This document shows, in pieces, positions 7,422 to 10,431 of a stretch of 10,696 nucleotides of DNA (positions are counted from its first letter, which is position 1; each line of letters opens with the position of its first letter). The DNA comes from Chloroflexota bacterium (GTDB taxonomy: Bacteria; Chloroflexota; Dehalococcoidia; Lucifugimonadales; UBA826): contig PBDP01000002.1 in assembly GCA_002718095.1 (NCBI GenBank), positions 105,240 to 115,935 on the forward strand, written 5' to 3'. A program made the position numbers and the translations under genes. Below the pieces are notes generated by a model. That model did not search any database. It was not told the DNA's origin and saw nothing but the letters and a program-made list of their open reading frames with translations.

Positions 7422-8447
7422 ATGGCTGAATTATCATCAAATTCATTCGAATTTGAAACTGACTCTGACGTAATAGAATATTTCATAACAAAAGGATGGA
7501 CTGACGGGCTGCCAATAATCCCTCCTACAATAGAAAGAGTCACAAAGTTTCTAGAAACAATTCCTAATATCTCTTCAGATGTGATCGGACATGAACCTGT
7601 TAAAAATAGAGAAATAACTGTTGAAAAAATAGCTATAAATGCTGTTATGGCTGGATGTCTGCCAGAATATTTTCCTGTGATACTTAAAACTGTAGAATCA
7701 ATTTTAGAACCTGACTTTGATCTACATGCTATAACATCTAGCACAATGGGAGCAGGGATATTAACTGTTATTACAGGACCAATTGCCTCTCAAATAAAAT
7801 TACATGGTGGAACCAGTGTATTTGGCCCTGGACACAGAGCAAATGCCACTATAGGAAGAGCAGTGAGATTATCTATCATAAACACAACTGGTTCGAACTC
7901 AAATCAAATAGATAAGGCAACTTTAGGACATGCAGGCAAATATACATGGTGTATAACTGAAAACTCTAACTCCCCATGGGCAAGTCTACATGAAGACAGA
8001 GGATTTAAGCCTACTGATAGTACTACAAGCGTATTTGCAGGATTATCTCCGATACAAGTATCAAATCATCATTCTCAAGAACCAGAAAAAATTCTGAGGA
8101 GTTTCCGAGACGCTTTATTTACAATTGGGCCCAATCAAGGTGAAATCGTAATAATTTTATGTCCAGAGCATGCCACTCATATAAGTAATTCTGGGTGGGA
8201 TAAAACTCAAATTAAAGATTACTTGTATGACATATCCATAAGATCGAATGATGATTGGAATCAAGGTTCATATGCTCCTTCTGCTTCACAAGGCGGTGTA
8301 GCTAATGACACAAAGTTAACTAATGTTGCCCTTGGACCAGATGCATTTACGATAATGGTAGCAGGCGGAAATGCAGGAGCATTTTCTTCTGTTATTCCAT
8401 TGTGGGGTGGCGGCAGTCGTTCCAAATCTATAACTAAAGTTATATAA
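7422..8447 (+). CDS. Conserved protein of unknown function, partner of UGSC selenoprotein
   Basis: I recognise the sequence pattern but no established function. The 341 residues contain GWTDGLPIIPPTIERV at 25-40, INAVMAGCLPEYFPVI at 72-87, FGPGHRANATIGRAVRL at 134-150, GKYTWCITEN at 172-181 followed by SPW, and ILCPEHA at 246-251. From memory, homologues in Actinobacteria, Proteobacteria and Chloroflexota share these blocks and often sit next to or are fused with a UGSC domain. Three cysteines (79, 177, 247) are candidates for thiol chemistry. There is no signal peptide or membrane helix, so it is probably cytosolic. The C-terminus is rich in Gly (VAGGNAGAF, WGGGSR). It lies 32 bp ahead of the selenoprotein gene, indicating one operon and probably one complex. 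The weak ribosome site (TAGGT) contrasts with the strong one of the next gene. Confidence 0.8.
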   Translation: MAELSSNSFEFETDSDVIEYFITKGWTDGLPIIPPTIERVTKFLETIPNISSDVIGHEPVKNREITVEKIAINAVMAGCLPEYFPVILKTVESILEPDFDLHAITSSTMGAGILTVITGPIASQIKLHGGTSVFGPGHRANATIGRAVRLSIINTTGSNSNQIDKATLGHAGKYTWCITENSNSPWASLHEDRGFKPTDSTTSVFAGLSPIQVSNHHSQEPEKILRSFRDALFTIGPNQGEIVIILCPEHATHISNSGWDKTQIKDYLYDISIRSNDDWNQGSYAPSASQGGVANDTKLTNVALGPDAFTIMVAGGNAGAFSSVIPLWGGGSRSKSITKVI

Positions 8448-8479
8448 TCAAAAAATATTCTAATCTCTAGGAGGATGAT

Positions 8480-9010
8480 ATGGTGCAAAAACTAACTGTT
8501 CTTGACCCTACCATAGAGGCCAAAATTGAAAACTCTATTCTTTCAGATCGCCCCGAATCACTAGACGGATTAACTGTTGGGCTTTTAGCAAATGGTAAAA
8601 GAAATTCTGAAGAATTACTTCAATATGTTTATGAAGTAATTAAAGAAGAGTATAAGTTAAATGAACCTATCTATGCTAATAAAGGCAATGCCTCAAAACC
8701 TTGCCCTCCAGATCTTCTAGAAGATCTGGCAGACAGATGTGATCTTATCATCACATCTTCTGGAGACTGAGGCTCCTGTTCATCGTGCAGTGTGCACGAC
8801 GGCATAACTTTTGAAAAACAAGGTCTCCCAACAGCAGTTATATGCACTGAGCCATTTGTTACAAGCGGTGTAGCCATGGCAAAGATGGGAGGAATACCTG
8901 ACTATTCTTTTGTAGTAACTGACCATCCATTAGGAAGCTTAACCCAAGATGACCTTAAGAAAAGAGCACGAGATATTGCTCCTGAAATAATATCTTTACT
9001 GCTTAACTAA
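8480..9010 (+). CDS. UGSC family selenoprotein, UGA at 8768 read as selenocysteine
   Basis: One continuous frame of 176 residues is split by TGA at codon 97. The parts on either side are in the same frame and join into one conserved domain: DLIITSSGD, then Sec97, then GSCSSCSVHDGITFEKQG and PTAVICTEPF. The motif U-G-S-C-x-x-C names the family; Cys homologues carry Cys at the Sec site. Other cysteines are 75, 87, 100, 103 and 122. From family memory, the segment resembles the U-x-x-C region of glycine/proline reductase B subunits, which suggests selenol-based reduction; the substrate is unknown. The start has a strong AGGAGG 5 nt upstream. The downstream piece alone has no ribosome site and would begin at a GTG within the motif. 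A SECIS-like hairpin follows the UGA, and tRNA-Sec is about 1 kb away. Release at UGA would leave a 96-residue stub without the redox motif. Confidence 0.92.
8708..8758 (+). repeat. Two perfect hairpins just upstream of the Sec codon
   Basis: Bases 8708-8729 are a perfect 22-nt palindrome: 9-bp arms starting CCAGATCTT around CTAG. After 5 nt, AGATGTGAT (8735-8743) pairs perfectly with ATCACATCT (8750-8758) across a 6-nt loop. The second hairpin ends 9 nt before the UGA. With the hairpin after the UGA, the message would have three stems in about 92 nt. The pairing is seen directly; a role in slowing ribosomes or in Sec insertion is inferred. Confidence 0.55.
8768..8800 (+). promoter_or_regulatory. 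Sec UGA codon and bacterial SECIS-like hairpin
   Basis: After the UGA (8768-8770), TCGTGCA (8783-8789) pairs perfectly with TGCACGA (8793-8799) around a GTG loop (8790-8792). Bacterial SECIS elements are stem-loops in the coding region with a small apical loop, a G among its first bases, and roughly 16-37 nt between UGA and loop. Here the distance is 19 nt and the loop starts with G. SelB would bind this loop and deliver Sec-tRNA. The hairpin must also encode the SSCSVHD residues, so its form is constrained by protein sequence. Confidence 0.75.
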
Positions 9011-9019
9011 AATATACTG

Positions 9020-9074
9020 TTAACCTGTTACCAAGGACCAATTTGACTATATATGTTCCTTGGTAACAGGTTAA
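9020..9074. repeat. Perfect 18-bp inverted repeat, possible bidirectional terminator
   Basis: TTAACCTGTTACCAAGGA (9020-9037) is repeated in inverse at 9057-9074 with a 19-nt spacer. It begins 10 bp after the selenoprotein stop and lies between convergent genes, where a shared terminator is expected. There is no real T run on either side, so a factor-independent terminator is not certain. An RNA-stabilising 3' hairpin, an operator or the remnant of a small mobile element are alternatives. Confidence 0.5.
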
Positions 9075-9187
9075 ACTGACAATTTAGAATTCTTTACTAA
9101 GAACATATGCTGAAGTTTTTCTTCAGATTTTATATCTGCTAAAGAAACCATTTTAGAAAATGTTTCATGTGCTTTTATATCAATCAT
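9071..9187 (-). CDS. Doubtful 38-codon ORF in intergenic region
   Basis: A short frame starts at ATG 9187 after a GAAGG about 5 nt upstream and encodes 38 residues beginning MIDIKAHETFSKMVSLADIK. Its stop codon falls inside the right arm of the inverted repeat, so the hairpin would follow it directly as a terminator. No family is recognised. It could be a small protein, the decayed start of a lost gene, or chance in AT-rich DNA. Otherwise the 261-bp gap 9011-9271 shows only the inverted repeat and a weak hairpin. Confidence 0.2.
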   Translation of the reverse strand: MIDIKAHETFSKMVSLADIKSEEKLQHMFLVKNSKLSV

Positions 9188-9229
9188 ATACCTTCAAAAA
9201 GAGTTATAAAGTTCCTACGATAACTTAGA

Positions 9230-9247
9230 AAGAGTAAAGGGACTCTT
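9230..9247 (-). terminator. Weak hairpin downstream of yaaA
   Basis: On the minus strand, a 6-bp stem (AAGAGT with ACTCTT around a 6-nt loop) lies about 25 nt after the yaaA stop, followed by a pyrimidine-rich stretch. It is short and lacks a proper U run, so it is a low-confidence terminator. Confidence 0.2.
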
Positions 9248-9271
9248 GGAGAAGAAAAAGGCCATCAAAAT

Positions 9272-9964
9272 TTAAGTGATGATTTTTATAAAATTTTTCC
9301 CGTCCCACTTATAATGATCAAATGTAAAATTATCTAATTCATCTAACCCTTTAGCTTGTGTTTCACATAAAAATTTTATGAATTGTCCCTTTACTACTTT
9401 ACCCATATGACCAGCAGATTTTAATTTTCCATCTTTAATTATCTTAAAATCTATCCTAACGATATTTTCATGAGAGTATGATTTACTATGAATTTGAGGA
9501 AGTAAATCAATTATTATATTTTCTTTACTTAAGTGTTTTGTAAGAATAGGGAACCAAAATTTAGTTAGAGATAAACTATTCATTTTTAGTTTGTAATCAG
9601 GTATTAGTGTTTTAGGTGTAACTATTCCAAATAAACCACTAAATATTCTTATATTTTTCTCAAAATATGACTTTGATTCATCAGATAAATTTTGCCAATC
9701 AATTTGGTTGTAAACAACTCCAGTGTATCTTTCAATTGAATATGAACAATTATTTTCCATAGCATTCAAGTTTAATTCATTGAATTGTTTTGCTTTTTGA
9801 AGTGTTACTCCATATATTTTTTGCAATTCTGCATCATCACTATTAGAAAGTTGTTTCTGAATAGCCTTAACTTCATTTTCAAAAATAAAATTCGTATCCT
9901 TGAATTTAATATTACTGGAATTTTTACTTGATTTACCTTCGCTTGGAGGAATAAGAATTAACAT
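9272..9964 (-). CDS. yaaA: YaaA family protein (DUF328/UPF0246), peroxide stress
   Basis: In E. coli, YaaA limits free iron and DNA damage during peroxide stress; it is cytosolic and binds DNA in vitro. This protein has 230 residues, somewhat shorter than the E. coli form (about 258). It shows the family marks: MLILIPPSEGKS at 1-12 (the start form common outside Proteobacteria), RYTGVVYNQIDW at 79-90, IRIFSGLFGIVTPKTLIPDY at 105-124, KFWFPILTKHL at 135-145, and HMGKVVKGQFIKFL with KGLDEL near the end. I chose ATG 9964 because the family begins here; a longer frame would run into tRNA-Sec. No Shine-Dalgarno is visible, and the leader from the tRNA 3' end is only 17 nt. It is probably transcribed with trxA and the tRNA. 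Confidence 0.85.
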   Translation of the reverse strand: MLILIPPSEGKSSKNSSNIKFKDTNFIFENEVKAIQKQLSNSDDAELQKIYGVTLQKAKQFNELNLNAMENNCSYSIERYTGVVYNQIDWQNLSDESKSYFEKNIRIFSGLFGIVTPKTLIPDYKLKMNSLSLTKFWFPILTKHLSKENIIIDLLPQIHSKSYSHENIVRIDFKIIKDGKLKSAGHMGKVVKGQFIKFLCETQAKGLDELDNFTFDHYKWDGKNFIKIIT

Positions 9965-9981
9965 ATAATTAAACACATAAA

Positions 9982-10079
9982 TGGCGGGAGCGCGAGGGAG
10001 TCGAACCCACTGCACCAATCGAAGGATTGCTGCCAACGGATTTGAAGTCCGCGGAGGCCACCAGGCCTCATCCGCCCCC
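9982..10079 (-). tRNA. selC: tRNA-Sec (anticodon UCA)
   Basis: The 98 nt including an encoded CCA fold as selenocysteine tRNA: long acceptor stem GGGGGCGG with GCGCTCCC, 6-bp D stem GAGGCC/GGCCTC with a four-base TGGT loop, anticodon loop CTTCAAA with UCA at 10043-10045, a long variable arm (GCAGCAATC paired with GATTGGTGC around CTTC), T loop TTCGACT and discriminator G. UCA reads UGA. The 6-bp D stem and long variable arm are hallmarks of tRNA-Sec and separate it from Ser and Leu tRNAs. Oddities: the eighth acceptor pair is G-G, one T-stem pair is U-U, and there is one G-G in the variable stem. It lies 22 bp after trxA and 17 bp before yaaA, so it is probably processed from a joint transcript. 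It serves the UGSC selenoprotein. Confidence 0.95.
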
Positions 10080-10101
10080 TTAAATTTAAATTAACTTTAT
10101 T

Positions 10102-10431
10102 TTATTTTGACAAAACTTCTTCTATTTTTTTCTGTATTATAGACTTAGGCACAGCTCCTACAATTTGATCAACGGGTTTCCCGTTCTCAAAAATCAAAAG
10201 AGCAGGAATTCCTCTAATGCCATATGTCATAGACAAATTACTATTGGTGTCAACATCTAACTTTCCAACTTTAACCCTTCCATCGTATTCCTCTGCTATT
10301 TGTTTTACAGACGGTGCAATCATACGACAAGGTTGACACCAATCAGCCCAAAAATCTACAAGTACTGGAATTGAAGAGTTTATAACTTCTTCATCAAAAT
10401 TATCTTCATTTATTTCTACTGGCTCTGACAT
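10102..10431 (-). CDS. trxA: Thioredoxin
   Basis: Thioredoxin reduces disulfides in target proteins and is recharged by thioredoxin reductase. The 109 residues are the full single-domain length. The active site reads WCQPC at 31-35, where WCGPC is usual. The buried Asp is in VDFWADWC, and the cis-proline is Pro76 in GIRGIPALLIF. No signal peptide is present, so it is cytosolic. The ATG is preceded by AAGGAGGG about 7 nt upstream, a very strong ribosome site. The tRNA-Sec gene follows after 22 bp and yaaA after that. Thioredoxin is the electron donor in glycine-reductase-type selenoenzymes (established for that system), so a link to the nearby UGSC protein is possible but inferred. Confidence 0.95.
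   Translation of the reverse strand: MSEPVEINEDNFDEEVINSSIPVLVDFWADWCQPCRMIAPSVKQIAEEYDGRVKVGKLDVDTNSNLSMTYGIRGIPALLIFENGKPVDQIVGAVPKSIIQKKIEEVLSK

Follow-up and report, generated by a model that had tools for sequence, protein, structure and literature searches.

A UGSC-family selenoprotein gene in a Chloroflexota genome, its partner gene and evidence for distant kinship with GrdB and PrdB

UGSC proteins have been a described family of selenoproteins since 2008, when their fusion to a domain called Unknown_1 and a likely thioredoxin-like fold were also reported (PMC2398784). Here, we analyze a gene of this family located in a 10,696-nt stretch of a Chloroflexota bacterium genome (GCA_002718095.1, contig PBDP01000002.1, positions 105,240 to 115,935, forward strand; hereafter, the window). 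Its product matches the known family (PMC2398784; NF041046; PF24696) over the whole length, carries the selenocysteine (Sec)/Cys-G-S-C motif and is accompanied by Unknown_1, which is either fused or adjacent in this family. Nothing essential distinguishes the window copy, which is unfused, has Unknown_1 upstream and lies near a tRNA-Sec gene and the thioredoxin gene trxA. It is a further member of a known, functionally uncharacterized family, and the novelty implied by an earlier note on this DNA is not supported, because both the family and its use of Sec were already on record (PMC2398784; NF041046). Beyond what was known, we identify Unknown_1 as the upstream gene, find that its pairing with UGSC is near-constant, that genes for thioredoxin and thioredoxin reductase (trxB) recur in the neighborhood, and that UGSC can be linked to GrdB of glycine reductase and PrdB of D-proline reductase. 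A relation to GrdB is not stated in the available passages of papers mentioning both proteins. Kinship with GrdB and PrdB, a constant partner and a likely electron donor make UGSC a testable enzyme, and it is this functional lead that deserves pursuit.

The UGSC gene and its in-frame TGA

The open reading frames at 8480–8770 (96 aa) and 8792–9010 (72 aa, GTG start) share one frame and, when joined through the TGA at 8768–8770, encode 176 aa. Consistent with the earlier note, which had read them as one conserved domain with a motif straddling the TGA, PF24696 matches the joined protein over residues 6–175 (E-value of 1.8e-57; 194.6 bits against a cut-off of 25), and NF041046, named 'UGSC family (seleno)protein', scores 146.2 bits, above its cut-off of 125. 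The downstream half was likewise correctly described as having no ribosome-binding site of its own: in the window sequence inspected, nothing resembling AGGAGG precedes the GTG, in contrast to the ATG at 8480. The motif around the TGA, GD-U-G-S-C-S-S-C, agrees with the [U/C]-G-[S/T]-C signature of the family. Across 17 diverse members, D-U/C-G-x-C is invariant, as are P10, D96, U/C97, G98, C100, D107 and F126 individually, whereas the second Cys, C103, varies. Since C100 is invariant and C103 is not, we consider U97-x-x-C100 to be the working pair.

Members of the family were found in 121 of the 197 genomes of the same order, with exactly one internal TGA per copy among the matches listed, and relatives in named records belong to Chloroflexi, Dehalococcoidia and SAR202 metagenome-assembled genomes. 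The alignment with Cys-containing homologues, proposed earlier as a test, placed Cys in the TGA column (D-C-G-S-C) in all 7 non-Sec homologues, which come from plasmids of the haloarchaea Natrinema (two), Halorientalis and Halalkalicoccus and of Arthrobacter, Roseovarius and Embleya. Were the TGA to terminate translation or to result from a sequencing error, the locus would yield two fragments or represent a decayed gene, and gene calling with table 11 does split it at this point. Yet the TGA recurs in more than 100 genomes with both flanks conserved, which, together with the Cys homologues and the conserved hairpin described below, effectively refutes this explanation on sequence evidence.

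The expectation that annotation would split such genes also holds outside the window. The Acidovorax conjugative plasmid p2-T1 (L055, from 5001) carries a Sec-type UGSC–Unknown_1 fusion with an in-frame TGA, and in the public plasmid record this UGSC-type gene is still entered as a short fragment, a 291-bp, 96-aa 'hypothetical protein' ending at the TGA. Separately, an inverted repeat at 9007–9087, right after the UGSC stop codon in the window, has 34-nt arms that are 79% complementary and an 18-nt perfect core with no other occurrence in the genome; it may be a terminator.

Selenocysteine insertion

Bacterial selenocysteine insertion sequence (SECIS) hairpins have been delimited as having a stem of 4–16 bp and a loop of 3–9 nt with G in one of the first two positions, located 16–37 nt from the UGA and folding with an energy of −7.5 kcal/mol or lower (PMC13188914). 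The SECIS-like hairpin noticed earlier in the window is within all of these limits, with a 7-bp stem beginning 12 nt and a GUG loop beginning 19 nt after the TGA, and an energy of −10.2 kcal/mol. Plain folding energy was tried as evidence and rejected, as it was no better than that of shuffles (z-score of −0.3), and a test on synonymous codons was used instead; because folding energy alone proves nothing, the evidence for the hairpin is its conservation. Nearly all Sec copies have a stem of 6–7 bp with a GU-starting loop at a fixed distance past the TGA (stem positions 16–22/26–32, counted from the T of TGA). Over 38 distinct Sec copies, a mean of 6.61 of the 7 positions are paired, versus 4.47 (standard deviation of 0.19, maximum of 5.18) in 2000 trials of synonymous recoding confined to the codons of the gene concerned, although the copies are related and the numbers thus overstate their independence. 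Part of the stem and loop is formed by a Ser codon, the seventh downstream of the TGA; all 37 Sec copies with Ser at this position have AGT, whereas AGT accounts for 14% of the Ser codons in the same genes and no Cys copy uses it there. Paired changes preserve the stem in L037 (C-G to T-A) and in the p2-T1 copy (C-G to G-C, with Cys replaced by Trp). The Cys copies show residual pairing (5.57 versus 4.43), because the protein sequence alone favors part of the stem.

The source genome (1.44 Mb, 94.6% complete) encodes all four components by which a bacterial selenoprotein producer is recognized, SelA, SelB, SelD and tRNA-Sec. The sel genes, which the note had asked to look for, all score above curated cut-offs: selA with 541.9 bits (cut-off of 267.9), selB with 314.6 (242.25) and selD with 362.9 (125). 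For the tRNA-Sec, already recognized in the note, ARAGORN and Rfam agree (Table 1). On this sequence evidence, it is virtually certain that UGA 8768 is decoded as Sec, which would be inserted by the genome's own SelA, SelB, SelD and tRNA-Sec under the direction of the SECIS hairpin just downstream. The selD gene (L012, G000:C5:336900-337820) contains one in-frame TGA of its own; therefore, the selenophosphate synthetase of this genome is probably itself a selenoprotein.

Table 1. Features of the UGSC locus (positions in the window).
Feature	Position	Strand	Details
Unknown_1 partner protein, 341 aa	7422..8447	+	32 nt before the UGSC gene; almost every relative has the two adjacent or fused
Ribosome-binding site AGGAGG	8469..8474	+	5 nt before ATG 8480; read from the sequence
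UGSC-family selenoprotein gene	8480..9010	+	176 aa across the TGA; PF24696 and NF041046 matches
In-frame TGA, selenocysteine 97	8768..8770	+	seven homologues have Cys here; single TGA per listed relative
Bacterial SECIS hairpin	8783..8799	+	stem 8783-8789/8793-8799 (7 bp), loop GUG 8790-8792
tRNA-Sec gene	9982..10079	-	ARAGORN; Rfam RF01852, 69.5 bits
Thioredoxin gene, candidate electron donor	10102..10431	-	PF00085, E 3.3e-32

Relation to GrdB and PrdB

Glycine and D-proline reductases make and break bonds between selenium and carbon (PMC10298544). The model of GrdB, component B of glycine/sarcosine/betaine reductase (TIGR01917/PF07355), is matched by 12 of the 17 UGSC members at E-values of up to 1 (best, 1.6e-6), and other members match the models of GrdF, GrdH and PrdB. 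The window protein scores 14.8 bits with TIGR01917, under the curated cut-off of 602.2; its score with the PrdB family (TIGR04483) is also weak (E-value of 0.094). Profile-profile comparison with hhalign aligned UGSC with GrdB/PrdB at a probability of 96 (E-value of 4.3e-9), Sec on Sec, and the probability remained 94.6 when the Sec column was masked; 40 column-shuffled controls reached at most 0.4 and one reversed control 0.1. Once translated across the in-frame TGA that they too contain, GrdB- and PrdB-like genes of the same class show the layout of UGSC, i.e., a hydrophobic strand, the Sec motif and then E-x-x-G-I-P, with P-H-P-x-G in addition in GrdB. Collectively, these sequence comparisons support a distant relationship between UGSC and the GrdB/PrdB C-terminal domain in which the Sec residues coincide.

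The likeness to GrdB comprises the C-terminal domain, the shared stretches E-x-x-G-I/L-P and H-P-x-G and a link to thioredoxin. UGSC differs in being only 176 aa long, without the N-terminal part of GrdB, and in pairing with Unknown_1; no GrdE/GrdA partner was identified, the genome not having been searched for GrdE. With PrdB, UGSC shares the domain and the position of Sec, as seen in the PrdB-like proteins L069 and L070, and differs in having Unknown_1, rather than PrdA, as its partner. Because no pyruvoyl partner was found in the comparisons made with Unknown_1, we do not file UGSC as a glycine reductase.

Two observations concern the GrdB/PrdB family itself. In four GrdB- or PrdB-like genes of the same class (L062, L065, L069 and L070), an in-frame TGA is found at the motif. 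With its 347 positions, the Pfam GRDB model stops just short of this codon, probably as a result of having been derived from entries that were themselves truncated; the source genome itself yields no match to PF07355.

The fold bears on a different explanation, in which UGSC would be no more than a redox protein of the thiol-disulfide or peroxide type, folded like thioredoxin, with Unknown_1 as its substrate-specific partner. The UxxC motif, the trx gene neighbors and the likely fold stated in 2008 (PMC2398784) speak for it. Against thioredoxins, however, hhalign gave UGSC a probability of 1.6, compared to 96 for GrdB/PrdB, and the predicted structure (predicted local distance difference test score, pLDDT, of 87) is an alpha/beta sheet in which the motif follows a strand at the start of a helix. 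The listed fold matches are flavodoxin-like; the absence of a thioredoxin fold among them does not exclude one. The model agrees better with the GrdB/PrdB relation than with the thioredoxin-like fold, and we regard a plain redox protein as rather unlikely.

Partner gene, neighborhood and possible reaction

Unknown_1 adjoins UGSC, on either side, in nearly all loci examined, which supports the pairing of the two. It belongs to no family in Pfam or NCBIfam searches, and a fold search yielded no convincing relative (model pLDDT of 74.6, which is middling; weak PDB matches). The possibility that it is a GrdE- or GrdB-like partner gained no support, its profile resembling neither GrdB nor the single GrdE-like sequence compared. 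The source genome encodes UGSC a second time (L002 1435-3075; G000:C3, about 44216), here fused to an Unknown_1 domain: the 546-aa protein has UGSC first, the motif U-G-T-C, its own in-frame TGA and a slightly different hairpin. In our view, this protein is the fusion of UGSC with Unknown_1 that was described in 2008 (PMC2398784).

Genes of the thioredoxin system lie beside UGSC at 11 distinct loci (trxA or trxB). A trxB-like gene directly follows UGSC in L019–L022 and L057, the reductases of L020–L022 being under the strict thioredoxin-reductase cut-off; trxB-trxA precede the UGSC/Unknown_1 pair in Arthrobacter (L056); and in the window, L030, L034, L044 and L049, trxA is located past UGSC. 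The source genome encodes a thioredoxin reductase above the cut-off at another location. The order Unknown_1, UGSC, tRNA-Sec, thioredoxin is conserved in the window (7422–10431), L034, L044 and L049.

We propose that UGSC and the adjacent Unknown_1 form one enzyme, a thioredoxin-fed reductase using a Sec-Cys pair, and give this mechanism as a whole a probability of roughly one in two on the sequence data. The Sec97-x-x-Cys100 pair would be carried on the GrdB/PrdB-like alpha/beta domain; after attack of the Sec97 selenolate on the substrate, Cys100 would resolve the product by forming a selenenylsulfide, from which thioredoxin, together with its reductase, would regenerate the selenol. Several points weigh against this proposal. 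No pyruvoyl partner of glycine or proline reductase was seen, Unknown_1 having been compared but the genome not searched for GrdE or PrdA; the GrdB/PrdB profile was built from four sequences; the PDB matches of the UGSC model are common flavodoxin-like folds, which suggest no particular reaction and are given no weight as to function; and only some 25% of the loci, many of them related, have thioredoxin genes adjoining UGSC.

Cys79 and Cys177 of Unknown_1 are near-invariant, as might be expected if Sec were inserted but the Sec-Cys pair served mainly to bind a metal or an alkylating compound, with Unknown_1 as an enzyme modulated by UGSC. Thioredoxin reductase genes directly downstream in L019–L022 and beside two plasmid relatives point instead to redox cycling, so that a binding role appears quite improbable. 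For the thioredoxin-fed reductase, the neighborhood of the plasmid relatives, with CoA-transferase, phosphoenolpyruvate-mutase-family and TRAP-transporter genes, hints at a small organic acid as the substrate. A more novel idea, which we consider possible though doubtful, is that UGSC and Unknown_1 represent a third branch of GrdB/PrdB selenoenzymes: a minimal reductase that depends on thioredoxin, lacks a pyruvoyl group and cleaves a carbon-heteroatom bond of such an acid, and that is distributed from marine Chloroflexota to haloarchaea and borne on plasmids.
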